Of a stretch of DNA of 35,423 nucleotides, positions 5,170-32,899 are shown in pieces (position 1 is the first letter of the stretch; every line of letters starts with the position of its first letter). Source of the stretch: Bacteroidota bacterium (GTDB taxonomy: Bacteria > Bacteroidota > Bacteroidia > Bacteroidales > Prolixibacteraceae); assembly GCA_021849365.1 (NCBI GenBank), contig JAJZSZ010000006.1:1-35423 (forward strand), written 5' to 3'. The notes under the pieces are model-generated. The model was not told the origin of the DNA, did not search any database, and saw only the letters and a list, made by a program, of their open reading frames with translations. Both the position numbers and the translations under genes were made by a program.

Positions 5170-5415
5170 ATGGCCTGGTTGTTTAATAATGATCACGAAA
5201 ATTACCAACTCAAATTTCGGGAGAAATGCGAGGCCACACTTAGAAACTATTTGTATGATTGTGTTAAATTCCGGCAAATCATTGAAGAAATAAATTCAAT
5301 CGTTGAATTTATTTGCAAAAAGGAAGTTTATCGGGTTGAACTTGGAATTTTCGACCGATACAATTCACCCTGCGAGATGTATTCTCATATTCTACGGAAC
5401 TACATTATTTTTTGA
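5170..5415 (+). CDS. Small hypothetical protein (81 aa)
   Basis: Open frame MAWLFNNDHENYQLKFREKCEATLRNYLYDCVKFRQIIEEINSIVEF...; occupies a region with no better ORF and overlaps the convergent gene by 16 nt. No recognised domain. Confidence 0.4.
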   Translation: MAWLFNNDHENYQLKFREKCEATLRNYLYDCVKFRQIIEEINSIVEFICKKEVYRVELGIFDRYNSPCEMYSHILRNYIIF

Positions 5416-7719: not shown

Positions 7720-9819
7720 CTAAGGAACTACCAGAATCCCTAATTCTGCAAGCCGTTTTCCGGTTCGCTCATGTTCAGCCTGATATTTTGATTCAATGTC
7801 GCTGGCAATCTGCTGAAACCTGGCTTCCCCACGGATATTGTCGAAAAGCGGATCATTTTTCAGGTAAACCGTCCACCAATGGGCAAATGATTTCCTTTTA
7901 TTTAAGATGTCTAAATTTTTGTAAGCCTCCTCTTTATTACCTATAAAAGTATAAGTAGCAGCAAGATCATAATAGGTGTGTGAGTCTGAGAAAAATCTTT
8001 GAAGTTTTATCATTTCCTGAGAATATTTGATTTGCTGATTAAAATAGAAATTGGCCTCTTTAAATTTGCCAAGTTTCCAATAGCAAAATCCAATACGATT
8101 CGCCCCATATGTAGGGATATATTCTGATTTTATTGATGCTTCAATGTATTTTTCGTAGAAAGGAAATAGTTCTTTGCTATTACTTAAAGATGAGCAATTT
8201 ATACCTAAATTGATAATGTAGTCGGGATTAATCGCGTGGGCTTTTTGGGCATAGCTTAAAGCGTTTTTAATGTTTCCACGGCTAAGCTCAATAGAACTTA
8301 AGTTATTAAAATACCATACTGAGTCTCCAAGTATGGATAATACGTCGGTATAATACTTTTCTGTTTGATCAAAAAATCCGGCCCATTGATATGCATGCCC
8401 AATAGACATCAAAAAATAGGGATACTCCTTTCCCCTGTTGCGTTTCATTCCTTCGATATAATTGGTAATGCCTTCTGCAAAATTCTCCAATAAATAGTGC
8501 GAAATTCTTCCTTTATTATAATACGACTTAAAGTCATTGGGATCCAGTTCTATGGCTTTGTCAAAATCTTCAGATGCCTGTTCAATTTTACCTGTTTCCA
8601 GGTAACAACTTCCCCTCAGCCGATATGCCTCTGCCAACTGACTGTCATAGTTAATTGCCTGATTGGCAAGAATTAAAATTGAATCTGTAAAATTTTCTAA
8701 GTATTGATTTTTAACCATGGGTATTTGAACATTTTTATCCCACATTATCTCGCCTAATCCAACGTATGCCTTCGCAAATGTTGAATCTTGCGCTACTGCT
8801 TTTTGGTAAAAATTCCAGGCATTTACAAGTGCAGTTTTGTTGTGGTTGTCATTCTCGCATTTCATGTATTCATTTCGCCCTCGTTGGTAAAAATCATAAG
8901 CTACAAGGTTTGTCGTAGGTAATTTTCTGATAAGCTTTTGTTCTTCCGGTGTTATTGCGGCCTTTAATTCATTGGCGACGGTCTCAGCAATTTCACTTTG
9001 AACCGATAAAATGTCTTTCCAATCCCGATTATATTCATTCGACCACGCATGCCTTTCGTCGCTTGCTTTAATTAGCTGCAATATCAACCTGCTTTTTTCT
9101 CCATCCCTTAAAAAGCTGCCTTCCAACAGATAGGCCACATCGAGTTCTTTGCCAATCGCTTTTGCAGTTTTGTCGGTTCTTCGGTACTGCTCAACAGAGG
9201 TTCTGGAAATAACACGCAGATCCTTTATTTTCGAAAGATGAAGCAGAATTGCGTCCATGATACCGTCGGCAAGATATTGTTTATCACCATCATCACTTAG
9301 GTATTTGAACGGAAGTACGGCAATTGATTTTTCTTTGTCATTGCCGGATTTTGAGTCTGAAACTTCATTCACAATCAGCGAAATTGCGATCGCCCCAAAA
9401 ATAACAGACCCCAAAATCACTAATATAATGGTTTTCAAATTCCGGCTTTTTGTCTTAGCGACAGGCTTATCGGAGTGGTTGTTATCGCCGTTCGATAACT
9501 CCCGCAACCTTAACTCGCCGGGAGCATATCCAAAATACTCGTGAAAGCACTTATTGAAATAAGTTGGACTGCCAAATCCGACCCGGTAAGAGATCTCTGA
9601 TGCGGTTAGATCTTCATTTAGCAACAACTCTTTTGCCTTATTGAGCCTGACCTCTCTGATAAATTGATTGATTGTTTGATTTGTATTGGATTTTAACTTT
9701 CGGTGCAGGTATGAATGGCTCATTCCCATTTCCCGGATAAGATCTTCGACTCCAAATTCTTCGTTTGCCAAATTTGCTTCCACAAGATCTGTAAGCCTTT
9801 GCATGAACGGGTTGTTCAT
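7720..9819 (-). CDS. AraC-type HTH / transmembrane / TolB-like (FlgO-like) / TPR protein (copy 2)
   Basis: 699 aa; same architecture as 5400..7484; first 170 aa nearly identical to copy 1, remainder divergent. Confidence 0.88.
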   Translation of the reverse strand: MNNPFMQRLTDLVEANLANEEFGVEDLIREMGMSHSYLHRKLKSNTNQTINQFIREVRLNKAKELLLNEDLTASEISYRVGFGSPTYFNKCFHEYFGYAPGELRLRELSNGDNNHSDKPVAKTKSRNLKTIILVILGSVIFGAIAISLIVNEVSDSKSGNDKEKSIAVLPFKYLSDDGDKQYLADGIMDAILLHLSKIKDLRVISRTSVEQYRRTDKTAKAIGKELDVAYLLEGSFLRDGEKSRLILQLIKASDERHAWSNEYNRDWKDILSVQSEIAETVANELKAAITPEEQKLIRKLPTTNLVAYDFYQRGRNEYMKCENDNHNKTALVNAWNFYQKAVAQDSTFAKAYVGLGEIMWDKNVQIPMVKNQYLENFTDSILILANQAINYDSQLAEAYRLRGSCYLETGKIEQASEDFDKAIELDPNDFKSYYNKGRISHYLLENFAEGITNYIEGMKRNRGKEYPYFLMSIGHAYQWAGFFDQTEKYYTDVLSILGDSVWYFNNLSSIELSRGNIKNALSYAQKAHAINPDYIINLGINCSSLSNSKELFPFYEKYIEASIKSEYIPTYGANRIGFCYWKLGKFKEANFYFNQQIKYSQEMIKLQRFFSDSHTYYDLAATYTFIGNKEEAYKNLDILNKRKSFAHWWTVYLKNDPLFDNIRGEARFQQIASDIESKYQAEHERTGKRLAELGILVVP
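9310..9819 (-). repeat. Direct repeat unit B (5' ~510 bp of copy 2)
   Basis: Partner of 6975..7484, same orientation. Confidence 0.75.
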
Positions 9820-10121: not shown

Positions 10122-12392
10122 ATGGCAAAATTTACCAAAGAAGATGCCCTGAGGTACCATGCTGAAGGACGTCCCGGCAAGCTTGAAGTAGTTACCACCA
10201 AACCGCATTCTACCCAACGCGATCTTTCGCTGGCCTATTCGCCCGGAGTGGCCCATCCTTGCCTTGAGATCGAAAAGAACTTCGACGACATTTACAAATA
10301 CACGTCCAAAGGAAATCTTGTAGCCGTTATTTCAAACGGAACTGCAGTTCTTGGACTTGGAGACATTGGGGCCGGTGCCGGAAAGCCAGTGATGGAAGGC
10401 AAGGGTTTCCTTTTTAAAATTTTTGCTGATATTGATGTATTTGACATTGAAGTTGATACGCATAACGTGGATACCTTGGTTGAAACTGTGAAAAATATTG
10501 CTGTTACATTTGGCGGAATCAACCTCGAAGATATTAAAGCACCTGAATGTTTTGAGGTGGAAGAGCGGCTAAAGCGGGAAGTTTCCATTCCGCTTATGCA
10601 CGACGACCAACACGGCACAGCCATCATCTGTTCGGCCGGAATAATTAATGCCCTTGAATTGGCCGGAAAAAAACTCGGAGATGTCCGCATTGTAATTAGC
10701 GGGGCCGGAGCTGCTGCCATTGCCTGTGCCAACCTGATTGTTTCGTTGGGTGCACGAAAAGAAAACATGGTGATGCTCGATTCCAAAGGGGTTATCCGGA
10801 AAGATCGAACCGACCTGAATAAATACAAAGCCGCGTTTGCTACCGATTTCGATCTTCATACCTTGCCCGAGGCTATGACCGGAGCTGATATATTCCTCGG
10901 GTTGTCTCAAGCCAACTTGGTTTCGAAGGAAATGGTTCGTTCGATGGCTCCCAACCCAATCATTTTTGCCATGGCCAATCCCGATCCGGAAATTCCTTAC
11001 GACGAAGCGATGTCAGCTCGCGAAGACCTGATTATGGCTACCGGTCGTTCCGATTTTCCGAACCAGGTAAATAATGTGCTGGGCTTCCCGTATATATTTC
11101 GGGGAGCGCTTGATGTGCGGGCAACCTGTATCAACGAGGAGATGAAGCGGGCTGCGGTTTATGCACTAGCCGGTTTGGCCAAGGAAGCTGTTCCTGAAAG
11201 TGTAAGCAAGGCATACAACGTAAAGAATCTGGTATTTGGAAAGGAATACATTATTCCCAAGCCACTCGATCCACGACTAATTTCGACTGTTGCACCGGCA
11301 GTTGCCAAAGCCGCTATCGACAGCGGTGTTGCACGGAAACCAATCTACGACTGGGATCAGTATAAGCTTGAATTGAGCCAGCGGCTTGGTTTGGATAATC
11401 AGTTGTTGCACGGCATCGTGGTAAAAGCCAAACAACATCCAAAACGAATTGTATTTGCTGAAGGAAATAACCCGAAAGTGCTTAGGGCGGCAAATGAAGT
11501 TCTGCACGACGGAATTGCAGTTCCGATATTGCTGGGGAACGAGAACGAAATCAGGCAATTAATTGCAGAGAACCATTTCGATTTGCACACCATATCCATT
11601 ATCGATCCGCACGCAACGGAAAGCGATCAGATGCGTGAGTCGTTTGCCAACCTGATTTGGGAAAAGCGTCGCCGGAAGGGAATTACGCTTGAAGAAGCTA
11701 TGGAATTGACCTACAATCGCAATTATTTTGGCATCATGATGGTTGATGCCGGAGAAGCCGATGCCATGATCTCAGGCGTTACCAGTCATTATGGCGATGT
11801 CATGAGTCCGGCATTGAAATTAATCGGACCGAAATCCGGACTGGTCCACATTTCGAGCATGTACATTGTATTGACTAAACGTGGTCCGCTGTTCTTTGCT
11901 GATACTTCGGTTAATCTCGATCCCGATGTTCAAACCCTCATTGAAACGACTTTACTGGCTTCGGAAGAAGTGAAGAAGTTTAATATTGAACCGGTAATTG
12001 CCATGGTTTCCTATTCAAATTTCGGATCGGTTAAATCATCGGAACATACCCGTACACTTGACCGCGTGCGGCAAACCATTGCCTTCCTGCATCAGAATCA
12101 TCCTGATTTGGTTGTGGACGGCGAGATACAGATGAATTTTGCACTCAACAAGGAATTGCGAAGCCAAAAATTCCCATTCACCCGGCTCGAAAACCGCGAT
12201 GTTAATACCATCATTTTCCCAAACCTGACTTCAGGAAATATTGCATACAAACTGATGCAGGAGGTTGGTGGGGCCGAGGTGGTTGGCCCAATCCTCATGG
12301 GAATGAAAAAGCCTATACATGTGGTTCCAATGGAATGTTCGGTACGCGAAATTGTCAATATGGCGACAATTGCCGTCGTCGATGCGCAATAA
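10122..12392 (+). CDS. maeB: NADP-dependent malic enzyme with C-terminal phosphotransacetylase domain
   Basis: 756 aa; SLAYSPGVAHPCLEI, HDDQHGTAIICSAGIINALELAGK, then PTA-like C-terminal half (RIVFAEGNNPKVLRAANEVL... GEADAMISGVTSHYGDVMSPALKLIG). Confidence 0.95.
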   Translation: MAKFTKEDALRYHAEGRPGKLEVVTTKPHSTQRDLSLAYSPGVAHPCLEIEKNFDDIYKYTSKGNLVAVISNGTAVLGLGDIGAGAGKPVMEGKGFLFKIFADIDVFDIEVDTHNVDTLVETVKNIAVTFGGINLEDIKAPECFEVEERLKREVSIPLMHDDQHGTAIICSAGIINALELAGKKLGDVRIVISGAGAAAIACANLIVSLGARKENMVMLDSKGVIRKDRTDLNKYKAAFATDFDLHTLPEAMTGADIFLGLSQANLVSKEMVRSMAPNPIIFAMANPDPEIPYDEAMSAREDLIMATGRSDFPNQVNNVLGFPYIFRGALDVRATCINEEMKRAAVYALAGLAKEAVPESVSKAYNVKNLVFGKEYIIPKPLDPRLISTVAPAVAKAAIDSGVARKPIYDWDQYKLELSQRLGLDNQLLHGIVVKAKQHPKRIVFAEGNNPKVLRAANEVLHDGIAVPILLGNENEIRQLIAENHFDLHTISIIDPHATESDQMRESFANLIWEKRRRKGITLEEAMELTYNRNYFGIMMVDAGEADAMISGVTSHYGDVMSPALKLIGPKSGLVHISSMYIVLTKRGPLFFADTSVNLDPDVQTLIETTLLASEEVKKFNIEPVIAMVSYSNFGSVKSSEHTRTLDRVRQTIAFLHQNHPDLVVDGEIQMNFALNKELRSQKFPFTRLENRDVNTIIFPNLTSGNIAYKLMQEVGGAEVVGPILMGMKKPIHVVPMECSVREIVNMATIAVVDAQ

Positions 12393-12430
12393 TTGTTTTT
12401 TTGTTTCTGTTCGTTTTAGGGTGGAATTTT

Positions 12431-12458
12431 AAAGAGGTCGTAACGACCTCTTTTTTTA
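12431..12458 (+). terminator. Intrinsic terminator after maeB
   Basis: aaagaggtcgt-a-acgacctcttt with 11-nt arms followed by a T-tract (cctctttttttatt). Confidence 0.8.
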
Positions 12459-12558
12459 TTGCAAAATTTCGACACGTGCGGGAAAATAGCGCCCTTTGAT
12501 TTTGTTTTTGTAGGCCGCTTTTAATATCATTGTGTAACCTAACCAAACAACCTATACG

Positions 12559-14568
12559 ATGAATCACTTTTCCTGCAGAAGATTAAAATCGCTTCTTTCA
12601 CTGATAGTTATACTTTGTTTCCAGAATAATATGCTGGTTCAGGCCGACGAAAATCGGTGGAAAATAAACCCTTCCGGTTCAATTTCATGGTTTATCGACA
12701 ACCGTTTGCCTCATTCGGATCACATCGAAATGAGTGGCGACAGTATTTCGGCTATTCTTCGTTATGGCGTAAATGCTGATAAATCGTTTCAGATTGAGCG
12801 GCAGCTGGTGTGGCCCATGCTGAGAACCATTCCGAACAATACGCACGCCAGTTTAATCCGCTCGTTTTCTGAAGATTTGATTGGCAAAATATCAGTGAAT
12901 GGTCGCCTTATAAAAGGCGAAAAAGTTGATGAAATTAGTCTGAATGGATTGATGACCGTTAAAAGTTCGGCTAATGGAATTGGGATTGAGCGGGTCATCT
13001 TTCCCTCAACAGCTCACCCGTTTTTTTACGAAGAATACAGGATTACAAATAGGCAGGACCGGCCACTTTCGGTTGAAATACCTGATTATCGGGTAGATTA
13101 CACAACCGATCCGCAAAAAGGAACAGTAGGTAGTTACAGCGTAGTTTCAGAGGTAGCGGGAAGCGGTTTTTATACCCTGAAAAAGGACGAAAGCGTTAGG
13201 TTTGGTCTGGTGTTTTCGGCATATCCAAAAGGTAAAAACAAAGTTGCTACAGATATTTCTGCAGAAAGAAGCAGCCGCGAGAATCTGGTTGCTGAGTGGG
13301 AAAACAAATTGGTACTCGAAACTCCTGACCAGGTTTTAAATCAGGCTTTTGCGTTTGCAAAAATCAGAGCTTCTGAAAGTATCTATAAAACTGCAGGTGG
13401 ATACATGCATGGTCCTGGTGGCGGAGCTTACTATGCCGCAATCTGGGCCAACGATCAGGCCGAATATGTCGGGCCATTCTTTCCGTTTTTGGGTTACTCA
13501 AAGGGCAACGATGCTTCGGACAACGCTTACCTGCATTTTGCCCGGTTCATGAATCCGGAGTACAAGCCAATTCCGAGCTCAATTATTGCTGAAGGGAAAG
13601 ATATCTGGAACGGAGCCGGGGACAGGGGCGATGCCGCTATGATTGCTTATGGGGCAGCCCGTTTCAGCCTTTCGCTGGGCGACAAACAAACCGCTGAAAA
13701 ACTCTGGCCTTTAATTGAATGGTGCCTCGAGTACAACAAACGACACATAAATACAGATGGCGTTGTTTCGTCGGATTCGGATGAGCTTGAAGGTCGCTTT
13801 CCTGCCGGAAAAGCAAATTTATGCACTTCGAGTTTGTATTACGATGCATTAATCTCGGCTGCTGCTCTGGGAAAGGAACTTGGCAAACCAGCCTCTTTAA
13901 CTTCAGTTTATGCCAAACAGGCTGCCGCGATAAAGCAGTCGATCGAATCGTTTTTTGGTCGCAAGGTTGAAGGGTTTGATACATACCGGTATTACAAGGA
14001 AAATGATGTACTGAGGTCGTGGATTTGTGTTCCGCTGACTGTCGGAATTTTCGATCGCAGCGAAGGAACAATTAATGCCCTTTTCTCTTCAAGGCTTTGG
14101 ACCAAAGACGGGTTGGCCACACAGGCAGGCGATTCAACCTTCTGGGATCGCTCAACTTTATACGCATTGCGGGGAGTTTTGCAGGCCGGTAAAACCGAAA
14201 AGGCAATGGAATTCCTGAAATATTATTCTCAGCGTCGTTTGTTGGGCGAACATGTTCCTTATCCGGTTGAGGCTTATCCGGAAGGAGGACAGCGACATCT
14301 TTCGGCCGAAAGCGGGTTATATTGCCGCATTTATACCGAAGGATTGTTTGGCATTCGTCCGGTTGGATTGAGTAGCTTCACAATTACTCCGCAGTTACCT
14401 GCCGATTGGGATTTTATGCGGCTGAAGAAGGTCCATGGATTTCAGAAGGAATTTGACATTGACATTAAGCGCGAAGGTGACAAAATCCGGTTGACTGTTA
14501 TGAGTAATGGGGCGGTCGTTCTAAATAAACTCGTACCAAACGGATCGAAACAGATGGTTAAGTTTTAG
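12559..14568 (+). CDS. Secreted six-hairpin (alpha/alpha)6-type glycosidase-like protein
   Basis: 669 aa; N-terminal signal-like segment; mid-region YMHGPGGGAYYAAIWANDQAEYVGPFFPFLGYSKGNDASDNAYLHFARFM, WNGAGDRGDAAMIAYGAARF, C-terminal beta-type segment. Family not assigned with certainty. Confidence 0.65.
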   Translation: MNHFSCRRLKSLLSLIVILCFQNNMLVQADENRWKINPSGSISWFIDNRLPHSDHIEMSGDSISAILRYGVNADKSFQIERQLVWPMLRTIPNNTHASLIRSFSEDLIGKISVNGRLIKGEKVDEISLNGLMTVKSSANGIGIERVIFPSTAHPFFYEEYRITNRQDRPLSVEIPDYRVDYTTDPQKGTVGSYSVVSEVAGSGFYTLKKDESVRFGLVFSAYPKGKNKVATDISAERSSRENLVAEWENKLVLETPDQVLNQAFAFAKIRASESIYKTAGGYMHGPGGGAYYAAIWANDQAEYVGPFFPFLGYSKGNDASDNAYLHFARFMNPEYKPIPSSIIAEGKDIWNGAGDRGDAAMIAYGAARFSLSLGDKQTAEKLWPLIEWCLEYNKRHINTDGVVSSDSDELEGRFPAGKANLCTSSLYYDALISAAALGKELGKPASLTSVYAKQAAAIKQSIESFFGRKVEGFDTYRYYKENDVLRSWICVPLTVGIFDRSEGTINALFSSRLWTKDGLATQAGDSTFWDRSTLYALRGVLQAGKTEKAMEFLKYYSQRRLLGEHVPYPVEAYPEGGQRHLSAESGLYCRIYTEGLFGIRPVGLSSFTITPQLPADWDFMRLKKVHGFQKEFDIDIKREGDKIRLTVMSNGAVVLNKLVPNGSKQMVKF

Positions 14569-19430: not shown

Positions 19431-19758
19431 AAGTTGGGTTTTTGGGTAAACTATTCAGGAACCGAACTTACGAAATATCTTTTCAAAATAGATGGGTTCC
19501 TGAAAATTAAGGGTTGAAGCCTGAATTTGTACCATGGGAATCAATAGACTCTTCAATACCTGTACACTTTTTATCTCTTAGTATTAAAATTGTCAGGAAT
19601 ATGGCTGGTTATACATGACTTGTTTTACTCTTTGTTTCAATTAGTTTTCAAGTATTTGTAGTAAATTTATAGTTAGTAAATTAACAGTTGATTTGTTTTT
19701 TACTTCATTACGGAGCCTCTGAACATTGTTCACTGCTCAAGAGATAATAGAGCTGACC

Positions 19759-21921
19759 ATGAAGCAGTTTTCTGCTATCGGTGATTGGTTTACGTGGTTA
19801 GTATTTCATCAGAATGACACTCCGGAACTTATTATCAGAAAAAAATTCTTTCTGATCACAAACCTCGTAACTATCGTTTTCATATCCATTATTACCGTAT
19901 TATCGTATGTGCTTGATTTGATGAATTTCGCACGCTATGCATTGATGTTGTTGGCATTTAGTTTGGGGCAATCAATTCTGCTGTTAATTCTCAGAAGCTG
20001 GTCGCGATGGTTTGTTTACTCTGTTTGCAGCCTTTTCATGGTGTTGATCTTCTACATTATTCTCAAACTTGGAGGGATTGCAAACTCGGCGGGCCTTTTA
20101 ATGGCGGCCTATTTTTTCCTTCTTACTTCGCAATGGATGGAAGATACAAAACTCTTGGTTTTGATTGGATTGCTGTTTGTGATTGGCGTGCTGGTTGCCG
20201 GAGTTTCATATCCTTATCTTAAACTTGATGAAAGCATATTCGGATGGAAGAACAACCTTTTCTTTGCAATAAACTTTGGCTGGATTGGACTATTGTTGGC
20301 TGTGGCTCTTTATTTTACAATTATAAAAAGTGAAAATACGGCTAAAAACAGGGCCGAGCAGTTACAGGAACTTGATCTTCTGAAATCACAACTTTATGCC
20401 AATATCGCTCACGAATTACGTACTCCGTTAACACTGATAAAGGGAAATGCAGAGGAAATAAAAGAGAATCATTATGGTGAAACTACAGATAGGGCAAACA
20501 GCATTATACAAAATTCAGATAAGATTTTGTCTCTGGTTAACCAGATATTGAACCTTTCCAAAATAGAAGAAGGTGTTATGCCAATGCGTTATGTCCAGAG
20601 CGATTTGATCACTTTTGTCAAGGCTATTGTGGATTCATTTCACGCATATGCCCATATGCAAAAGATTGAGCTACACTTTTATTCAGAATGCCCGCAACTA
20701 TTGATGGATATTGAACCAGAGAAGTTGGAAGAATCGCTGTCGAACCTGTTATCGAACGCCATCAAATATACCCCTCAAAATGGAGATGTTTATGTTTCGG
20801 TTCGAAAACTCCTTTCGGACAGTAAATCAGAGCCGCAGGTTGAAATCAGTGTACGTGATACCGGAATTGGCATTCAGGAAGACCAGCTCGATAAAATTTT
20901 CATTCGCTTTTACCGTGTCGAGGACAAACGTTATCCTTATCCCGAGGGAACAGGAATAGGGCTGACGCTGGTGAACGAATATCTTAAGCTAATGAATGGC
21001 TCAATACACGTAAGCAGTTCGTTGGAAGAAGGTTCCGAATTCATCATCGTGCTTCCCGTAACTCACACTGCAGAAACAAAGAATGAAATTCGTTCAGGAA
21101 ATTCATTCAGGAGTAGGGAAACATTTAATACATCGCATATCGCAATTACAAACAATGACAATAACTTACCTCATTTACTCATTATTGAAGACAATAAGGA
21201 GTTGAGCGAATATCTTATCGGTTTGCTTAATGACGAATATCAGATTCTAACTGCCGAAAATGGTGTCTCCGGAGTTGAAAAGGCTGTAACTATTATTCCT
21301 GACATTATTTTGAGTGATGTAATGATGCCCGGCAAAGATGGCTATCAGGTTTGCAAAGAGTTGAAGAATGATTTTCGTACAAACCATATCCCAATTGTAT
21401 TACTCACGGCCAGAGCCGACACTGATTCGCGCATTTTGGGACTGGAGCTAGGCGCCGATGCATACCTTACCAAGCCTTTCGACAAAAAGGAATTGATGAT
21501 TTGCCTGCATAATCTGTTTATTCAACGGGAGAAACTGAGGTTGAAGTATCAATCAAATCTTTACGAAAAGTTTCCTGAGGAATATGCTGGCGGATTAAGT
21601 GAAAAGTTTTTGAACAGGACGATTAGAATTCTTGAACAGAATTTTGGCGATGAAACCTTCCGTATTGAGGACCTGTACCTGAAATTAGGAATCAGTAGAG
21701 TACAACTGCACCGAAAACTGACGGCTTTAACCGGACAATCAACATCCACTTTCATGCGAAATTTCAGGTTACATAAAGCCTGCAGGCTATTGCCTGAACC
21801 CGATAAAAATGTTTCGGAAATTGCTTATGCTGTTGGCTTTACTGATGCCAATTACTTTACACGTGCATTCACGCAGGAATACGGAATAACTCCGACAGAA
21901 TACAGGAGATCTATTATATAA
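19759..21921 (+). CDS. Hybrid sensor histidine kinase / response regulator / AraC regulator with N-terminal TM sensor (copy 1)
   Basis: ORF track begins at an alternative TTG (19726); ATG at 19759 is more likely. Several TM helices, LYANIAHELRTPLTLIKGNAEEI, NLLSNAIKYTP, receiver ILSDVMMPGKDGYQVCKEL / LLTARAD / YLTKPF, C-terminal AraC HTH. Confidence 0.92.
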   Translation: MKQFSAIGDWFTWLVFHQNDTPELIIRKKFFLITNLVTIVFISIITVLSYVLDLMNFARYALMLLAFSLGQSILLLILRSWSRWFVYSVCSLFMVLIFYIILKLGGIANSAGLLMAAYFFLLTSQWMEDTKLLVLIGLLFVIGVLVAGVSYPYLKLDESIFGWKNNLFFAINFGWIGLLLAVALYFTIIKSENTAKNRAEQLQELDLLKSQLYANIAHELRTPLTLIKGNAEEIKENHYGETTDRANSIIQNSDKILSLVNQILNLSKIEEGVMPMRYVQSDLITFVKAIVDSFHAYAHMQKIELHFYSECPQLLMDIEPEKLEESLSNLLSNAIKYTPQNGDVYVSVRKLLSDSKSEPQVEISVRDTGIGIQEDQLDKIFIRFYRVEDKRYPYPEGTGIGLTLVNEYLKLMNGSIHVSSSLEEGSEFIIVLPVTHTAETKNEIRSGNSFRSRETFNTSHIAITNNDNNLPHLLIIEDNKELSEYLIGLLNDEYQILTAENGVSGVEKAVTIIPDIILSDVMMPGKDGYQVCKELKNDFRTNHIPIVLLTARADTDSRILGLELGADAYLTKPFDKKELMICLHNLFIQREKLRLKYQSNLYEKFPEEYAGGLSEKFLNRTIRILEQNFGDETFRIEDLYLKLGISRVQLHRKLTALTGQSTSTFMRNFRLHKACRLLPEPDKNVSEIAYAVGFTDANYFTRAFTQEYGITPTEYRRSII

Positions 21922-21952: not shown

Positions 21953-24112
21953 ATGGTACTTAACCGAAAAATAGATGGTTGGCTTAGCCGGTTACTTTGG
22001 TACGAAAGTGATACGCAGGAAACGCTTGACCTGAAAGTTTATCTTGTTGGAAACATGATCATTCCGGCAGTTATTATCACGCTTAACCTGATCCTGATTT
22101 TAATATTAAAGGTGTCTCATCTCTTCTTGTTAATCAGCCCCCTTGTACTATCCATGATAATTACAGTGGCTTTACTGCTAATGATAAAGCGGGGAATAAA
22201 ATGGTTTCTCTATTTTTATTATGGGGGGTATATCGTTATTTGTGGGTTAATTGTTCTTGAGCTGGGAGGACTTCCAAATTCATGCGGGGTATGGGGAGGA
22301 GCGTTTATTTGTTTTATGCATGCTTTGGCTGTAAAGAGTAAGCAAATATTGATTATTAATGCGTCAATTTACTGTATTTGTCTGATTATAATAGGCTTTT
22401 CATTCCCTTATCTGTCGCCTGCAAAAGAATGGAGCCCCAAAATCAACAATATATTCTTCACAATAAACGAAATATGGATGTGTTTGTATCTGGTCAAATC
22501 CTTTTATGACAGTATCATCATTAAAACGGATGAGGCGAAAAAAAGGACAGCACACTTACAAGAGCTCGACCTGATGAAATCTAAACTATACGCCAACATT
22601 GCCCATGAATTTCGTACTCCTTTAACATTGATAAGGGGAAATGCCGAAGAGATTGAGGAGCATTATAGTGGTGAAACGAACTCCCGGGCAAATTGTATCA
22701 TCCAGAATTCAAATAAAATTCTATTTCTGATCAACCAAATGCTGAACCTTTCAAAAATAGAGGAAGGCCATGTTTCTTTAAATTACATTCAATGCGATTT
22801 GGTTGCCTTTGTGAGGTTTATCGTAAATTCATTTCTGGGCTATGCCGAATCGCGGAAAATTGAGTTACACTACCAACCACAATGTCGTCAGCTGATGATG
22901 GATATTGAAACAGAGAAACTTGAAGAGTCGTTATCTAATCTTTTGTCCAATGCTATAAAATATACGCCTGAAGGTGGCGATGTTTATATTTCAATCAGGC
23001 CGCTGAATTCGACTAAAACAACAAATTTACAGGTCGAAATCAGCGTGCAAGACACCGGAATTGGCATTCCTGAAAATCAGTTGGATAAAATATTTATTCG
23101 ATTTTATCGGGTTGAGGATAAGCGTTTCCCCTATCAGGAAGGTACAGGAATTGGACTTACTTTGGTCAGCGAATACATAAAACTAATGCATGGCTCTATT
23201 CGGGTGAATAGTACGCCAAATATTGGTTCCGAATTTATTATAGCGCTTCCGGTTACGCAGAATGCAAAAATTGGAGGACTTGCCCCCGATAGAGCTAATG
23301 TTTGTGTACAAGAGATAGCTGACTCTCAGTCGAGAGAAGTTAAACATACCACCAATCGCCCTCGTTTGCTGATTATTGAAGACAACAGTGAACTGACCGA
23401 TTATCTTGTGGGATTGCTTGAGATCGATTATCAGATTCTTACTGCCGAAAATGGAATTCAGGGTATAACGCATGCCATAAAATATATTCCGGATATTATT
23501 CTGAGTGATGTAATGATGCCAGGCAAAGATGGATATCAGGTTTGTAAGGAATTGAAGAAAGATTTTCGCACCAATCATATTCCGATTGTATTGCTGACTG
23601 CCAGGGCTGATAACGATTCACGCATACGTGGATTGGAACATGGCGCAGATGTGTATCTCACAAAACCTTTTAATAAAAGAGAATTGATGGTTTGCCTGAA
23701 TAATCTGCTTGTACAAAGAGATATTTTGCGGCTCAAGTTCAGCAATCAAATTTTAAGTAAGGAAACCATTAATAAAGAGGCTGGATTAAACGAGAATTTT
23801 ATGAATAAAGTAATTGTGTTCCTTGAAAAGAATTACCAAAACGACAGGTACGGGATAAACAATCTTTATTCCGATATGAAAATAAGTAGGGTACAGCTTC
23901 ACCGAAAACTTACTGCTTTAACCGGTCAACCGGCATCCGGTTTTATCCGGAACTTCAGGCTGCAAAAAGCCCGCAACCTTTTGCTCGAAACCTACAAAAA
24001 TGTATCAGACATCGCCTATGAAGTTGGGTTTGCCGACGCTAATTATTTTGGTAAAGCTTTTATTTCAGAATATGGATTATCGGCTACCGATTACCGAAAA
24101 TCATTCACATAG
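21953..24112 (+). CDS. Hybrid sensor histidine kinase / response regulator / AraC regulator with N-terminal TM sensor (copy 2)
   Basis: 719 aa; same layout as the preceding gene (LYANIAHEFRTPLTLIRGNAEEIEE; ILSDVMMPGKDGYQVCKELKKDFRTNHIPIVLLTARAD; C-terminal AraC HTH); 31 nt after the previous stop. Confidence 0.92.
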   Translation: MVLNRKIDGWLSRLLWYESDTQETLDLKVYLVGNMIIPAVIITLNLILILILKVSHLFLLISPLVLSMIITVALLLMIKRGIKWFLYFYYGGYIVICGLIVLELGGLPNSCGVWGGAFICFMHALAVKSKQILIINASIYCICLIIIGFSFPYLSPAKEWSPKINNIFFTINEIWMCLYLVKSFYDSIIIKTDEAKKRTAHLQELDLMKSKLYANIAHEFRTPLTLIRGNAEEIEEHYSGETNSRANCIIQNSNKILFLINQMLNLSKIEEGHVSLNYIQCDLVAFVRFIVNSFLGYAESRKIELHYQPQCRQLMMDIETEKLEESLSNLLSNAIKYTPEGGDVYISIRPLNSTKTTNLQVEISVQDTGIGIPENQLDKIFIRFYRVEDKRFPYQEGTGIGLTLVSEYIKLMHGSIRVNSTPNIGSEFIIALPVTQNAKIGGLAPDRANVCVQEIADSQSREVKHTTNRPRLLIIEDNSELTDYLVGLLEIDYQILTAENGIQGITHAIKYIPDIILSDVMMPGKDGYQVCKELKKDFRTNHIPIVLLTARADNDSRIRGLEHGADVYLTKPFNKRELMVCLNNLLVQRDILRLKFSNQILSKETINKEAGLNENFMNKVIVFLEKNYQNDRYGINNLYSDMKISRVQLHRKLTALTGQPASGFIRNFRLQKARNLLLETYKNVSDIAYEVGFADANYFGKAFISEYGLSATDYRKSFT

Positions 24113-25885: not shown

Positions 25886-26767
25886 TCATTTTAGCAATTC
25901 GGCTGGAATTGCCGGCGTTGCCCCTTTTTGCGTACAAACAAAAGCAGAAATCTCGACAGCCTTTTGGTGAATCTCTTTTAATGGTCTTTGGTTAAGTATA
26001 CCCATTACCATAGCCGAAGTAAACGAATCGCCAGCACCAACGGTATCTTCAACCTTTACTAACGGTGTTGGTACAAACGAAACTTCGTCGTTACCAAACA
26101 AATAACTGCCGGATTCACCTTTGGTCAGGGCTAAATAATCGAGCGAATAGGTTTCTTTGATTTTTTCACAGATTTGTGTTTCTGATCCTTCCAGCCCAAA
26201 CAGTTCTTTAAATATTTCAACCTCGTCGTCGTTGATCTTGAAAATATTGGCAAGCGATAACGATTCATGAATCAACTCTTTACTGTAATATTTCTGCCGA
26301 AGATTGATGTCATAAACTTTCAGGCAATGGTCCGGAACAAGCTTCAAGGCCAATATGATGGATTCATGCGAAACCCAGCTGCGCTGTGCCAGAGTCCCGA
26401 AACATACCGCATCAGTTTCTTTTAAAACCTGAATGGCTTCAGGAAGAAGCTCAATGAAATCCCATGCTACATTTTCGTAGATGGTGTATTCGGGCTTCCC
26501 TTCCTTTAAGGTTACACCAACGGTACTGGTCGGGTATTTATTAATGGCGATGCAATTCCGGATTCCTTTTTCATTGACAGTATTCATGATTTCACGGCCC
26601 AATTCATCGTCGCCAACTGCACTGATTGCCACGCCAACAGCGCCAAGCTGCATGGCATGATAAGCGAAATTAACAGGTGCTCCACCCAAAACTTTTCCTG
26701 TAGGCAACATGTCCCAAAGAACTTCGCCCATCCCGACTACTGTATATTTTTTGATTGAATTATTCAT
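25886..26767 (-). CDS. PfkB-family carbohydrate kinase (fructokinase-like)
   Basis: 293 aa; GEVLWDMLPTGKVLGGAPVNFAYHAMQLGA; LVKVEDTVGAGDSFTSAMVMGIL (PfkB signature). Confidence 0.93.
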   Translation of the reverse strand: MNNSIKKYTVVGMGEVLWDMLPTGKVLGGAPVNFAYHAMQLGAVGVAISAVGDDELGREIMNTVNEKGIRNCIAINKYPTSTVGVTLKEGKPEYTIYENVAWDFIELLPEAIQVLKETDAVCFGTLAQRSWVSHESIILALKLVPDHCLKVYDINLRQKYYSKELIHESLSLANIFKINDDEVEIFKELFGLEGSETQICEKIKETYSLDYLALTKGESGSYLFGNDEVSFVPTPLVKVEDTVGAGDSFTSAMVMGILNQRPLKEIHQKAVEISAFVCTQKGATPAIPAELLK

Positions 26768-26811: not shown

Positions 26812-27963
26812 CTACGCTTGTTTAATTTTAGGAAAAACGCCAAGAATCAGGTAGGTCACCAAAGCAAGCAACACGATAACAGCGCCGACTTGTCCGCCCA
26901 TTGTATCCGACATTACGCCCATGATCAACGGGAAAACCGCCCCGCCGAATACGCCCATGATCATTAACCCCGAAACCTCGTTGTTGTATTTGGGTTGACA
27001 AACAAGGGCTTGTGAGAACATGACCGAGAAAATGTTTGCATTACCCAGGCCAAATAAGGCAATACCCACATAAATGATGGTTTTATCGGCAGTGAACATG
27101 GTTAAGATTCCTGTTAAAATCATCAATACACTGACCAAAAATACTTTCCGGCCTGAGAATTTTGCAAGTATCGCCGATCCCAGCAAACAGCCTACAGTTC
27201 TGAAAATGAAATAAAAACTGGTGGCATAACCTGCATCGGCTAATGGGATATTTAATTTCTCGATCAAAAGTTTGGGCGCAGTTGTATTTAAACCAACATC
27301 GAGTCCAACATGCGCCATAATTCCGAGAAACAAAAAAAGCACAGTGACATCGCCAAGGAGTGAAAAACTGGCCCGAAAAGAGGTTGATTTATTTTCGGCT
27401 TTGGGCTCATCAACTTTTGTAATGAAAAGTAAGGCAATCACCAATACACATATTGCCAGGAATGAGGGGAACAGAATCATTCTCCAATCAGAAAAACGAA
27501 TGACTGCCCAGGCTGCAAGAATCGGGGCGATGAACGAGGCGATTGCCTTAACAAATTGACCAAAAGTTAAGGTACTTGCCATCCGTTCTTTACTTACCAA
27601 ACCTGCAATCAGCGGATTCAGCGACACTTGCATCAGTGTATTTCCTATACCCAGAAAGGTAAATGAAATAAGCATCGTGACAAATGAATAGCTAATTAGC
27701 GGAATCATTAATGCAGGAAGGGTTACCACCAAACTCAGCAATACGGTGTTTTTTCTTCCAATTTTGTTCATCAGCATGCCTGTTGGAACCGAAAAAACAA
27801 AGAACCACAGGAACACCATGGAGGGCAATAAATTGGCCAACGTATCAGACAGTTGAAAGTCAGCTTTCACGTAATTGGCTGCAATACCTACCAGGTCGAC
27901 AAATCCCATGGTAAAAAAAGCCAACATAATAGGAACTAATAAAAGGGCTGATGATTTTTTCAT
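26812..27963 (-). CDS. MFS sugar transporter (FucP-like)
   Basis: 383 aa; FFTMGFVDLVGIAANYVKADFQLSDTLANLLPSMVFLWFFVFSVPTGMLMNKIGRKN; multiple TM; between fructokinase and GH32. Confidence 0.88.
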   Translation of the reverse strand: MKKSSALLLVPIMLAFFTMGFVDLVGIAANYVKADFQLSDTLANLLPSMVFLWFFVFSVPTGMLMNKIGRKNTVLLSLVVTLPALMIPLISYSFVTMLISFTFLGIGNTLMQVSLNPLIAGLVSKERMASTLTFGQFVKAIASFIAPILAAWAVIRFSDWRMILFPSFLAICVLVIALLFITKVDEPKAENKSTSFRASFSLLGDVTVLFLFLGIMAHVGLDVGLNTTAPKLLIEKLNIPLADAGYATSFYFIFRTVGCLLGSAILAKFSGRKVFLVSVLMILTGILTMFTADKTIIYVGIALFGLGNANIFSVMFSQALVCQPKYNNEVSGLMIMGVFGGAVFPLIMGVMSDTMGGQVGAVIVLLALVTYLILGVFPKIKQA

Positions 27964-27981: not shown

Positions 27982-29544
27982 TTAACGCCAGATTGAGGCT
28001 AGTTTCCGTACTTTTGATTCAGTTATTTTTATTTCCTGTTCCGACTTAATATTCACTTCATTGTAAATTTCGCCCGGAAATACAATATTAGTCATTTCAA
28101 GCAATCCTTCATTCAGGAAAAGCTCAACCGATGCCTGATCGATAACCAGACGTAGTGATACTTTTTCATCTATCTGAGCCGGGGCAACAATATCGACCGG
28201 AAAATTCGGACTGAAAGATGTCTCGCCCGAATGATTGCGGTTAATGCGAACCTGCTGTTTGGCTTTATCCAGAACAATTTCAAATACCTCATTTTTGCTG
28301 TTTGCCAGCTGAATGTTAGCCTGACTGGCCGTTCCCAAATCGAGTTCTACGGAATAGTCGAAAGCATCAGCAGCACCCAGACTGTATGTATTTGATGATT
28401 TTTCCGATTGAAGAGTTTCCCATTTTGACCCGTAATTTTCAAATTCAGCAGTTGGGTAGCCACTCAATACAATTTCGCCGGATTCAAGCTTTTTAAGTTT
28501 TAACTCCCGGGGTAAAGTCATTGCTCCACGCCAAACCGTTGTTGGAACCTTGTTTGCATATTGCCAGTTACTCATCCAGCCAATCAACAATCTGTGTCCG
28601 TCAGCTGCCGGAATGCCCGACCAGCTTACTCCGGCGTAATTGTCTTTCCCGTAATCCATCCAGCGGGGAGCAGGACTCGGGCTTTCGTTGTGAAATACCT
28701 TGCCGTCGAATTCGCCTACGAAATACTGTGTTGCCGAGCCTCCGTTTGGCCCACCGGGATTGATGCTCACCAAAAGCACCCATTTTTCCAGATCGGTTCC
28801 CTCTACTTTTAGCTTGAACAAATCGGGACATTCCCAGGCAGCGCCATGCTGACCAACGCCTTCGCCAAATTCGCTTTCCTTGGTCCAGTTTTTCAGATCG
28901 GGTGACGAGAAAAATGTAATGGTATTGAGCGTTGCCAAAGTCAAAATCCACTTTTTTGTGGGTTCGTGCCAACACACTTTCGGATCGCGGAAATCGCGAA
29001 TCCCGGGGTTTTTAACTACAGGATTGTGATCGTATTTGGTCCAGGTCATTCCATCGTCGTTGCTGTATGCAATCGCCTGATTCTGAAATGTATTTGTTCC
29101 GGCTTTTGCTCCAACAAAGTCATGATAGGTAAACATAGCCACCAGCGGTCCTTTCCCATCTTTTCCCAATCCTGAGGTGTTATTCGCATCGACAACCGCA
29201 CTTCCGGAGAAAATGCAACCAAGCGAATCGGGATAGAGTGCTATAGGCAAGTGTTTCCAGTGAATCAAATCCTTACTTACGGCATGTCCCCAATGCATAG
29301 GACCCCAAACTGAACTGTCGGGGTAATACTGGTAAAACAGGTGGTAATTTCCGTTCGAGAACACCAGTCCGTTCGGATCGTTTGTCCAATGCGCTTCAGG
29401 CGAGAAGTGAATCTGAGGACGATAAGGCTCGGTATAATAACCACTTTTCGAAGCATCAGCCGTTTGTTTTTTTGCGGACTGATTGGTACACGACATGATT
29501 ATCATGCCAATTGCAAAAACGCTTAAAATGAAATTTATCTTCAT
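27982..29544 (-). CDS. GH32 family fructan hydrolase (levanase/inulinase/invertase-like) lipoprotein
   Basis: ORF track start 29598; ATG at 29544 gives lipoprotein signal MKINFILSVFAIGMIIMSCTNQ. GH32 motifs HWTNDPNGLVF, FRDPKV, WECPDLF all present. Confidence 0.95.
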   Translation of the reverse strand: MKINFILSVFAIGMIIMSCTNQSAKKQTADASKSGYYTEPYRPQIHFSPEAHWTNDPNGLVFSNGNYHLFYQYYPDSSVWGPMHWGHAVSKDLIHWKHLPIALYPDSLGCIFSGSAVVDANNTSGLGKDGKGPLVAMFTYHDFVGAKAGTNTFQNQAIAYSNDDGMTWTKYDHNPVVKNPGIRDFRDPKVCWHEPTKKWILTLATLNTITFFSSPDLKNWTKESEFGEGVGQHGAAWECPDLFKLKVEGTDLEKWVLLVSINPGGPNGGSATQYFVGEFDGKVFHNESPSPAPRWMDYGKDNYAGVSWSGIPAADGHRLLIGWMSNWQYANKVPTTVWRGAMTLPRELKLKKLESGEIVLSGYPTAEFENYGSKWETLQSEKSSNTYSLGAADAFDYSVELDLGTASQANIQLANSKNEVFEIVLDKAKQQVRINRNHSGETSFSPNFPVDIVAPAQIDEKVSLRLVIDQASVELFLNEGLLEMTNIVFPGEIYNEVNIKSEQEIKITESKVRKLASIWR

Positions 29545-29611
29545 GATATACTGGTTTAGTTTGTATATGCCCGCGTTGTTGTAAGACGAGCAATGCAATT
29601 TTGTTGATGGG

Positions 29612-31099
29612 TTAATTGGTTAAATTATATATGGTTGCTCCATTTAATGTGATTTCGCCACCTTCGGCAAACAATTTTAAGTTGTTGAATTCCTTGTTGG
29701 GAAGCAGCTTCTCTGTCATTACCACATGTCCGTTTCCTGAAAAAAGTTCAACCGATGAATGATAGATAATAATTCGGAGATCGAGGGTTTCCTGGTTGGC
29801 AATGTATGGCCCATAATCCACCGGAATCGGTAATTCTGCCTGTTCAGTTTGTCCTTTATACTGTCGATCGACGTAAAATACGCGCTTCGTATGGTTATAG
29901 GCAACAGTTAATCTATCTCCTGCATCCGTCAGAAATTCGGCCCCAAATTTCTCGGCAAAGTTTAACCATTGCAATTTATTGAGGTTAAAAGTGAGGTTCA
30001 GTTCATAAGGCAAAGTCAGCTTTTCATTAATTGTCAGAACGCCTTTCAAATTGGTTCCTGCAATCATTTTCTTTTGGTCCCGGAGTTGGTCAATTTCTTC
30101 AACTGGTGACGATTGAACTACAAAACCATTAAAATTACGACTTAATGAAAGTTCCCGGGGAAGAGTAAATGAGTTAACCGATTTTGAAGTGTCTGCGGAA
30201 TTACTGATGCAACCGATGTGGTAACAAATGTTGTTTGCCAAGGCTGTAACTCCGGCAAAATTATCACTTCCGTAATCGACCGATTTAATTTTCTCGCGAA
30301 CCGGCTGAAATGCAAATCCGTTGAAATCACCAATAATACTACGTGTTCCGGCACCACAGGAAGGATTTCCCGAATTGTAACTTACCATCAGCACCCATTT
30401 TGTTTTATTACTTTCCGTATCAATTAAAGGGAAGAAATCTGCACGGTTCCATTCGCCGCTGATGTAATCGAGTACCTCGGTAAATGTGCTGTTCAATTGC
30501 CAGTCGATCAGGTTTTCCGACGAATAAAAGCGCACATGATCGCGTCCGGTTGCCATTAGTATCCATTTCTGCGACTCTTCGTGCCAGATAATTTTCGAGA
30601 TTTTATAATCGGACACTGGAGTGCCGAGTGAGATCTGTCGCTCGGTATATCTGGTCCAGGTTTTTCCGAAATCGTAACTGTAGGCTAGCTGCTGGATATC
30701 CGTTGAAACAGTTTGGTAGATGGCAATCAATGGTTGTTGCCCGTCTTTCGCCAGGCCTGAAGTATTATCCCAATCGATTACAAAACCGGCAGAATTAATA
30801 ACTCCTGACGAATCGGGTAGTTGCAGTGTTGACGACTTTTCCCAATGAATCAAATCGCTGCTTATAGTTTGCGCCCATTTATTATCGTCGCCGTTAATTT
30901 TACCCTGAAAGAAAAGATGAAACTGTTTACCGTCGTGAACCAAAGCCGCCGGAATACCATCATTCATTCCACTCGCAGCAAAATGCAACGATTGGCGGTT
31001 TGCTTCATTCTCAGGAGTATGCCCACAACTTACCAACAGAAAAATAACAAGTAGAAAAGAAACTATTTTGAATGCCATATTGATTGATTTGAAAGACAT
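29612..31099 (-). CDS. Degenerate GH32-like lipoprotein (probable non-catalytic paralogue)
   Basis: 495 aa; MAFKIVSFLLVIFLLVSCGH lipobox; collinear with the neighbouring GH32 (FHLFFQ, DLIHWEK, WILMATGRDHVRFYSSENLIDW, KWVLMVSYNSG, FAGVTAL, SVELF) but the NDPNG, RDP and ECP motifs are altered. Confidence 0.85.
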   Translation of the reverse strand: MSFKSINMAFKIVSFLLVIFLLVSCGHTPENEANRQSLHFAASGMNDGIPAALVHDGKQFHLFFQGKINGDDNKWAQTISSDLIHWEKSSTLQLPDSSGVINSAGFVIDWDNTSGLAKDGQQPLIAIYQTVSTDIQQLAYSYDFGKTWTRYTERQISLGTPVSDYKISKIIWHEESQKWILMATGRDHVRFYSSENLIDWQLNSTFTEVLDYISGEWNRADFFPLIDTESNKTKWVLMVSYNSGNPSCGAGTRSIIGDFNGFAFQPVREKIKSVDYGSDNFAGVTALANNICYHIGCISNSADTSKSVNSFTLPRELSLSRNFNGFVVQSSPVEEIDQLRDQKKMIAGTNLKGVLTINEKLTLPYELNLTFNLNKLQWLNFAEKFGAEFLTDAGDRLTVAYNHTKRVFYVDRQYKGQTEQAELPIPVDYGPYIANQETLDLRIIIYHSSVELFSGNGHVVMTEKLLPNKEFNNLKLFAEGGEITLNGATIYNLTN

Positions 31100-31156: not shown

Positions 31157-32899
31157 TTAGTAGCCAGGATTCTGGACGTACAATCCTTTGGTAAAGTCGA
31201 TTTCACGTTGCGGAATTGGGAAATATTCATCACGACCGGCAGTGAATTTCGCATTACCCAGGAATGCTCTTCTGGTTTTTTCTTTGGTCAGATAAGCGTT
31301 GAGCGTTGGCTCGGCAATTCCCCAGCGAACAAGGTCGAAGAAGCGCGGACTTTCCATGGCAAATTCCAAACGTCGCTCCCATTGCAGAGCCTTGCGTGCA
31401 TTTTCTTTGGTCCACGAAAGATTCGATCCGTCATACAAAGCAATCTTGTAATTTGAAGCAGGAGTACCATCGGCCAGTTTTGTTCTTCCAGTACTGTTGG
31501 CAGCTCTGGCCCTGATCTGGTTGATCAATGGCATTGCTTTTTCCTGCTGACCTAATTCAATATAGGCTTCGGCCTGCCATAAAAGCACATCAGCATAACG
31601 AATGATATCGATATTTTTGGATGTTCCCATAAATGGGCCAAGCTTCTTATAACATGCACAATCGGCAGCCTGCTGTTCTTTCATACTTTGGAAGAATCCG
31701 TAAACACCGGGATCACGAACCCAACTGTTTTTGAAAATGTAAGCAGCATCGCTCCGATATTTATACGGGTGTCCGTCCATTCCAACGGTATGGTCAATGC
31801 GCGGATCAACAGTAACTCCTTTCGGTGTAATGTCGGCAGCACTCAACTCCACATTGTTGAAAGTATCATATTTCGGTAAACCATTGGCGTCGGTTGCAAA
31901 AGCATTGACCAGGTTCTGGCTTGGCTGATGGAATCCGCAACAGCCGTACTGCGAGGCTCCGGTTGGGTAATTTAAACCTGTTACGAAACTGAGACGACCG
32001 GTCGAAGTTCCGTCGCTGATAGAGAACTGAACAGCGAAAACCGATTCAGGACCATTGTCAAATCCATCCAAGAAGTTTTCAGCAAAATCGGGCTGAAGAC
32101 GATACTTTCCTGAATTGATTACTGTTTGTGTCAAAGCAACAACCTCGTTTAAGCGGGCAGCATTTATTCCGGTAACTTTGTGGTTCGCATCCTGCTCATA
32201 AGCCTGATACAAACGCAGTTTTGCCAGGTAAGCCGCAGCCGCAAATTTGTTGACGCGACCAACTTCAGGTTGTGTTTCAGGAAGATTGTCCAGGGCGTAT
32301 TTAAAATCATCGGCGATCTTGTTCCACAACTGATCGTTGGTGTATTGGTTGTTTTTGGTCTTCAGAATGTCCTCGTTCGACAAGGTTTCGTCGATAAACG
32401 GAATATTCTTGAAAATCAGTTTCATTACAAAATGAGAGTGTGCACGTAAAAAACGAGCTTCGGCAATACGCGTTTTACGCAATGATGTTGGAGTGAAATT
32501 TTCGTCTTTCAATTCGTTGAGCGCACGTAAAGCTGCATTGGCTCTTGAGATAGCAGCATAAAAATTCTCCCAGGTATAAGCGCCCATCCAAACCTGGCTT
32601 GGTGTGGTCAGGTTGTATTGCTCATAGAAATTCACGTCGGCTACGTCGCCAACGCCTCCACCACCCTTGTAAGCATCGTCAGAGCGGACACTTCCGTAAA
32701 CCCACATACTAGTCATCGGACCAATCATATCGTCGTTGGCAATACCTGCATAAGCGGCTATTACCAGCCCATTCGCACTTTCAGCTGTTGGATTGCCCGC
32801 GGTAATATATCCTTCAGGCTTTGTATCAAGGTAATCATTACACGAAGCCAGTGAAACGGCCAGTATAACTAATGCTTTACCAAAATTTCTATATTTCAT
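31157..32899 (-). CDS. susD: RagB/SusD family outer-membrane glycan-binding lipoprotein
   Basis: 580 aa; lipobox LAVSLASCNDYLDTKPEGYITAGNPTAESANGLVIAAYAG; RIAEARFLRAHSHF; ADVLLWQAEAYIELGQQEKAMPLINQIRARA; C-terminal RQFFPIPQ-like DEYFPIPQREIDFTKGLYVQNPGY. Confidence 0.96.
   Translation of the reverse strand: MKYRNFGKALVILAVSLASCNDYLDTKPEGYITAGNPTAESANGLVIAAYAGIANDDMIGPMTSMWVYGSVRSDDAYKGGGGVGDVADVNFYEQYNLTTPSQVWMGAYTWENFYAAISRANAALRALNELKDENFTPTSLRKTRIAEARFLRAHSHFVMKLIFKNIPFIDETLSNEDILKTKNNQYTNDQLWNKIADDFKYALDNLPETQPEVGRVNKFAAAAYLAKLRLYQAYEQDANHKVTGINAARLNEVVALTQTVINSGKYRLQPDFAENFLDGFDNGPESVFAVQFSISDGTSTGRLSFVTGLNYPTGASQYGCCGFHQPSQNLVNAFATDANGLPKYDTFNNVELSAADITPKGVTVDPRIDHTVGMDGHPYKYRSDAAYIFKNSWVRDPGVYGFFQSMKEQQAADCACYKKLGPFMGTSKNIDIIRYADVLLWQAEAYIELGQQEKAMPLINQIRARAANSTGRTKLADGTPASNYKIALYDGSNLSWTKENARKALQWERRLEFAMESPRFFDLVRWGIAEPTLNAYLTKEKTRRAFLGNAKFTAGRDEYFPIPQREIDFTKGLYVQNPGY

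Follow-up and report, generated by a model that had tools for sequence, protein, structure and literature searches.

What does a GH32-like lipoprotein do beside a SusCD transporter once its catalytic residues have been replaced? The question is raised by a gene of the window (the whole stretch of Prolixibacteraceae DNA analysed, 35,423 nucleotides) that the initial annotation had described as a degenerate paralogue of the adjacent GH32 gene, located at positions 29612–31099 in the slot of a surface glycan-binding protein (SGBP). A GH32-homologous open reading frame does occupy this interval but is encoded on the minus strand, the opposite strand being packed with stop codons. The gene, referred to below as pseudo-GH32, belongs to a one-strand series with short gaps in the order susC, susD, pseudo-GH32, intact GH32, MFS transporter and PfkB kinase (Table 1). 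Its placement directly after susD, also proposed initially, is borne out by a spacing of 57 bp.

Table 1. Features of the pseudo-GH32 locus in the window. Residues of the pseudo-GH32 protein are numbered with Ser2 as 1.
Feature	Coordinates	Strand	Evidence or remark
susC (TonB-linked outer membrane protein), cut by the contig end	32921–35422	−	TIGR04056, 497.7 bits
susD, of the subtype found before every pseudo-GH32 gene	31157–32899	−	SusD_RagB
pseudo-GH32 lipoprotein, 495 aa	29612–31099	−	ORF; Pfam GH32N and GH32C; AlphaFold model; lipobox
Lipobox Cys, C24 (LVSC; LLVSC)	31025–31027	−	Cys invariant, 21/21 members
Degenerate nucleophile motif, WMNDPNGL to MNDGIPAAL	30941–30967	−	Alignment
Degenerate RDP motif, KIS	30596–30604	−	Alignment
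Degenerate ECP motif, NRA; no acid/base Glu	30440–30448	−	Alignment
β-sandwich residues 361–385, family-specific conservation (N373, L378, A381, E382, F384, G385)	29942–30016	−	
Catalytically intact GH32 partner	27982–29598	−	NDPNG, RDP and ECP present; likely ATG near 29544
MFS sugar transporter	26812–27963	−	Domain matches
PfkB-family fructokinase-like kinase	25886–26767	−	Domain matches

The window protein is covered over its whole length by Pfam GH32N (E = 1.1e-28) and GH32C (E = 1.4e-17), both above cut-off; only GH32 domains were found in the Pfam search, and no DUF4960-type levan-binding domain. Its sequence matches in the PDB are exo-inulinases, invertases and levanases. An AlphaFold2 model based on 39 aligned sequences (pLDDT 87, pTM 0.86) was compared with the PDB by Foldseek: all 50 listed matches were GH32 enzymes, the best being the exo-inulinase 1Y4W (TM 0.82). 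By sequence and predicted fold, the protein is a GH32, with propeller and sandwich over its full length. The GH32 fold is thus predicted to be retained, in line with the fold-defining stretches pointed out in the initial annotation, and the lipobox reported there is present as well.

The catalytic residues are another matter. Alignment with the neighbouring GH32 pairs WTNDPNG with MNDGIPA, RDPKV with KISKI and WECPDLF with WNRADFF, and on a large GH32 alignment the triad reads I-I-N in the window protein versus D-D-E in the neighbour (Ile in place of the nucleophile Asp, Ile in place of the RDP Asp and Asn in place of the acid/base Glu). The initial residue reading was therefore correct: profile-based mapping to GH32 did not recover Asp/Asp/Glu. 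Two candidates for a rescued residue were considered and rejected. The Asp of MNDG is not a preserved nucleophile, because the two orthologues carry Glu at this position and other clade members Leu; of the two options raised at the outset, displaced or lost, the nucleophile is lost. An Asp at the RDP position is kept in 16/21 family members but is absent from the window protein and its two closest orthologues. Judged by these alignments, the window protein is not an enzymatic GH32, all three catalytic residues being replaced.

A homologue search retrieved two orthologues at 66–67% identity and further members at 26–36%. In total there are 21 pseudo-GH32 proteins: of the 141 genomes searched in the window's own family, 20 encode one, as does a genome of another family of the same order (G049). 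Sunxiuqinia dokdonensis DH1 (L057; Prolixibacteraceae in the NCBI taxonomy) is one named carrier. A binning artefact is excluded, since several members come from single-contig genomes. Neither the nucleophile Asp nor the acid/base Glu is kept in any of the 21, which agrees with the loss of catalysis predicted initially, and the replacements at the three catalytic positions vary between members; the same loss is conserved across genomes without frameshifts. The family is well delimited in a profile search of ~790 genomes across the order and the phylum, where its last member scored 575 bits and the next match 439 bits. In the loci opened from matches at or below 439 bits, the catalytic motifs were present, one of them lacking only an exact NDPNG string.

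In a tree calculated with the motif columns excluded, the 21 proteins form a single clade (SH-aLRT 98) that adjoins three partly degenerate GH32s lacking only the RDP Asp (support 96), and the two groups together nest inside active GH32s of fructan-type clusters. Judging from this tree, the pseudo-GH32 proteins are of one origin and descend from a GH32 fructanase. The GH32s of three genomes of one genus (L137, L138 and L139; also L035:10064–11623, L036:12029–13588 and L040:8759–10318) have the triad DYE: nucleophile and acid/base are kept and the RDP Asp is lost (CKYPRL). Being sister to the pseudo-GH32 clade, the triad-DYE proteins are possibly an intermediate. As to the proposed paralogy with the neighbour, full-length homology to GH32 stands, but the neighbour as the source of a duplication is unsupported by the free tree, in which the adjacent active GH32 is not the nearest relative. 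Since an AU test did not reject a sister relation of the clade to the neighbouring active GH32 (p 0.58), a local duplication is nevertheless compatible with the data, though the free tree groups pseudo-GH32 elsewhere.

An open frame and a lipoprotein-type leader are found in all 21 members. For the window protein and its two orthologues, dN/dS was unusable due to saturation of synonymous sites; in nine genomes of one related genus, median dN/dS was 0.14 for pseudo-GH32, 0.08 for the adjacent active GH32 and 0.033 for SusD. A value of about 0.14 in that genus indicates purifying selection and shows that pseudo-GH32 is maintained. What is maintained differs from what is conserved in the enzymes. 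Close active GH32s share 137 invariant positions, and pseudo-GH32 has lost 64 of them, including the −1 subsite tryptophans, Gln, Arg and Glu, with no one agreed replacement. Mean identity in active GH32s is 0.66 in the propeller versus 0.34 in the sandwich, whereas in pseudo-GH32 both are about 0.39. Residues 361–385 show an identity of 0.57 among pseudo-GH32 proteins versus 0.23 among active GH32s, i.e., 2.5 times higher, and the pattern [ND]x(2-3)[WY]LxxA[EK]xFG occurs in 21/21 pseudo-GH32 proteins and in 0/162 other GH32s of the tree set. A comparison of position conservation revealed no evident family-specific invariant aromatic platform on the propeller. As far as can be told from sequence conservation, this pattern shows that constraint moved from the active-site face to a family-specific β-sandwich motif. 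Whether the former active site still binds a ligand is doubtful, because its −1 subsite is destroyed and it is the C-terminal β-sandwich that has gained constraint.

To see what accompanies each transporter, every SusD locus found was scored against the window SusD and the next gene was recorded. Above 900 bits (71–100% identity and one truncated copy), pseudo-GH32 came next in 21 of 22 loci; the remaining locus is cut off by the end of its contig. Between 630 and 900 bits, an active GH32 was next in 4/6 loci, and between 380 and 630 bits, a DUF4960 protein in 24/41. All 21 pseudo-GH32 genes thus directly follow susD of one subtype, against 0/47 at other related SusD loci. DUF4960 was found in none of the 21 pseudo-GH32 clusters; where a carrier genome possesses DUF4960 at all, a genome check placed the gene in another cluster. 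The nearest SusCD relatives without pseudo-GH32 (SusD about 63–70% identical) have an active GH32 in the slot and no DUF4960. Levan binding by the DUF4960 domain is documented (PMC10076258), so the post-susD position can rightly be read as an SGBP slot in fructan-type clusters generally. However, because the nearest relatives hold an active GH32 there, the term has to be widened to a surface GH/SGBP slot. In position and anchoring, as a lipoprotein encoded directly after susD, the window protein is like an SGBP. At L034:12135–12557, an IS200-type transposase ORF lies between susD and pseudo-GH32, neither of which is disrupted.

The enzyme partner is less constant. An intact GH32 directly follows pseudo-GH32 in 17 of the 20 loci with a visible next gene; in L157 a GH36 gene lies in between, in L143 a GH172-like gene stands instead, and in L041 the GH32 is further off and broken. 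Genomes G003 and G019 are both close to the window in SusD (1239 and 1248 bits) and pseudo-GH32 (764 and 733 bits), yet the enzyme partner scores 1024 bits in G003 and only 574 bits in G019. Pseudo-GH32 therefore follows the transporter and not the enzyme, as the G019 partner diverges while SusD and pseudo-GH32 stay close. The active GH32 at L041:7460–9067 (G049) is split by a stop codon, with an intact pseudo-GH32 at 11458–13023, and at L047:8154–9384 (G003) a second GH32, near another SusCD pair, is broken into two ORFs.

Some hints as to the substrate come from the accompanying genes. A GH36 α-galactosidase is encoded in 9/21 pseudo-GH32 clusters (L142, L144, L145, L146, L149, L151, L153, L156 and L157) versus 0/47 other SusD loci, and a GH172-like (DUF2961) gene in one of the 21; in the window genome, GH36 is on another contig. 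In view of the nine GH36-bearing clusters, the ligand may be a raffinose-family or other galactosyl-sucrose oligosaccharide rather than levan. The association is a lead and not a test, because these clusters concentrate in few genera. In Bacteroides, raffinose-family oligosaccharides are used via BT1871 and PUL22 hydrolases (PMC11501099).

Given the lost triad and inheritance with one transporter, pseudo-GH32 most likely helps to capture or hand over sugar without cutting it. The reading that we favour, and consider probable from comparative sequence data, is that it belongs to the SusCD complex as an outer-membrane lipoprotein without catalytic activity, derived from a GH32 enzyme and doing SGBP-like work. 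The genetic basis for a SusCD subunit is the 21/21 linkage to one SusCD subtype; surface exposure, contact with SusC/SusD and glycan binding are what we infer. A GH32 fructanase would have given rise to a protein that serves a single SusCD transporter lineage as its dedicated subunit and most likely sits on the SusC lip, where GH32 and SGBP subunits are found in the levan utilisome. There, like an SGBP, it would keep a chain or oligosaccharide that contains fructose close to the mouth of SusCD, while hydrolysis and import would fall to the separate intact GH32, the MFS transporter and the kinase. A variant of the endo-levanase BT1760 without the acid/base residue binds levan strongly but no longer cuts it (PMC6560043), so loss of catalysis could at first leave a GH32 that acts as a binder; in the pseudo-GH32 family, the pocket has decayed since then and a sandwich motif has become fixed. 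Since the sandwich domain of BT1760 is not a levan-binding module (PMC6560043), the conserved block may be a protein interface, and contact with SusC/SusD is perhaps made through residues 361–385. Some observations count against the SGBP-like reading: family members do not conserve the former fructose pocket, the propeller shows no evident invariant aromatic platform of the family's own, and the nearest SusCD relatives carry an active GH32 in the slot and no DUF4960 SGBP. A fuller scenario is put forward tentatively and is, as a whole, less likely to be right than wrong: a whole SusCD lineage of Prolixibacteraceae and a relative would have taken on a GH32 without its triad as an obligatory transporter subunit, the new sandwich block having replaced the propeller active site as its functional surface, in clusters that lack a DUF4960-type SGBP and import galactosyl-sucrose or fructo-oligosaccharides.

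The main rival to SGBP-like work is an architectural or docking role on SusCD with no affinity for glycans: the GH32 body would occupy the surface-enzyme site of SusC, act through the β-sandwich block and stabilise the complex or position another protein. The weakened propeller conservation, the gain in the sandwich block with its exclusive signature, and the strict SusCD linkage with a changing enzyme partner all argue for it, but the binding site could itself have moved to the sandwich: the CBM66 of SacC is a fructan-binding β-sandwich, according to a passage of PMC10076258 that cites it. We regard docking without glycan binding as rather unlikely, though deserving of attention. Regulation of the neighbouring active GH32, by analogy with plant Nin88, a defective invertase that indirectly activates cell wall invertases (PMC3713406), would fit the adjacency of the two genes in most loci; this adjacency is broken in L157, L143 and L041, and the partner GH32 varies while SusCD linkage is constant, which makes a regulator very improbable.

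A further alternative is that pseudo-GH32 is still an enzyme, its mechanism or substrate having changed and its catalysis relying on different residues of the five-bladed propeller. The RDP-position Asp of 16 members would suit it, as would the GH36 or GH172-like genes that some clusters have nearby and that hint at unusual substrates; among the 21 members, however, no propeller acidic residue is both family-invariant and absent from active GH32s, and the replacements at catalytic positions differ from member to member, so that we give it slightly less credence than a regulator. The least credible alternative is a decaying pseudogene. Lost catalytic residues and a dN/dS above that of the partner enzyme are what decay would produce, but the open frame and leader of every member, a dN/dS far below 1 and the existence of a family-specific conserved motif speak strongly against it.

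Compared with GH32 fructanases such as the Aspergillus awamori exo-inulinase (1Y4W) and B. thetaiotaomicron BT1760, the latter likewise a lipoprotein beside SusCD, pseudo-GH32 shares the whole (here predicted) fold and sequence homology but lacks the nucleophile and acid/base, has a destroyed −1 subsite and is conserved in the sandwich. Like the levan SGBP of the BT1761 type, made of Ig-like domains and a levan-binding domain, it is a non-enzymatic lipoprotein encoded after susD in a fructose-sugar cluster, yet it has neither DUF4960 nor Ig-like domains and its fold is unrelated. In the B. thetaiotaomicron levan utilisome, GH32 and SGBP stand side by side on the SusC lip (PMC7618045), and SusC, SusD and accessory lipoproteins are likewise encoded together; the pseudo-GH32 clusters differ in having a dead GH32 after susD and no DUF4960. 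Plant defective invertases such as Nin88 are GH32 folds without sucrose hydrolysis, as pseudo-GH32 is predicted to be, but they have an intact triad, never affected according to a 2013 review (PMC3713406), and an altered glucose-binding couple, whereas pseudo-GH32 is a bacterial SusCD-operon lipoprotein with the triad lost. The accessible parts of the open-licence papers covered by our literature search describe no bacterial triad-less GH32 as a SusCD partner.

Family-based annotation calls pseudo-GH32 a GH32 and so probably counts a nonexistent enzyme, skewing predictions of fructan use. The family would also be a clear-cut example from nature of how a surface glycosidase can become an accessory of a transporter, and its SusCD linkage, signature and named carrier strain make the role of SusC-borne GH32 bodies and of their little-studied sandwich directly testable.

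Elsewhere in the window, tandem hybrid histidine kinase–response regulator–AraC proteins encoded on the plus strand at 19726–21921 and 21953–24112 are candidate regulators of the nearby cluster. Another tandem pair, at 5400–7484 and 7720–9819 on the minus strand, encodes paralogues of 694 and 699 aa with very similar N-termini, each with an AraC-like N-terminal region and a TPR-like C-terminal part.
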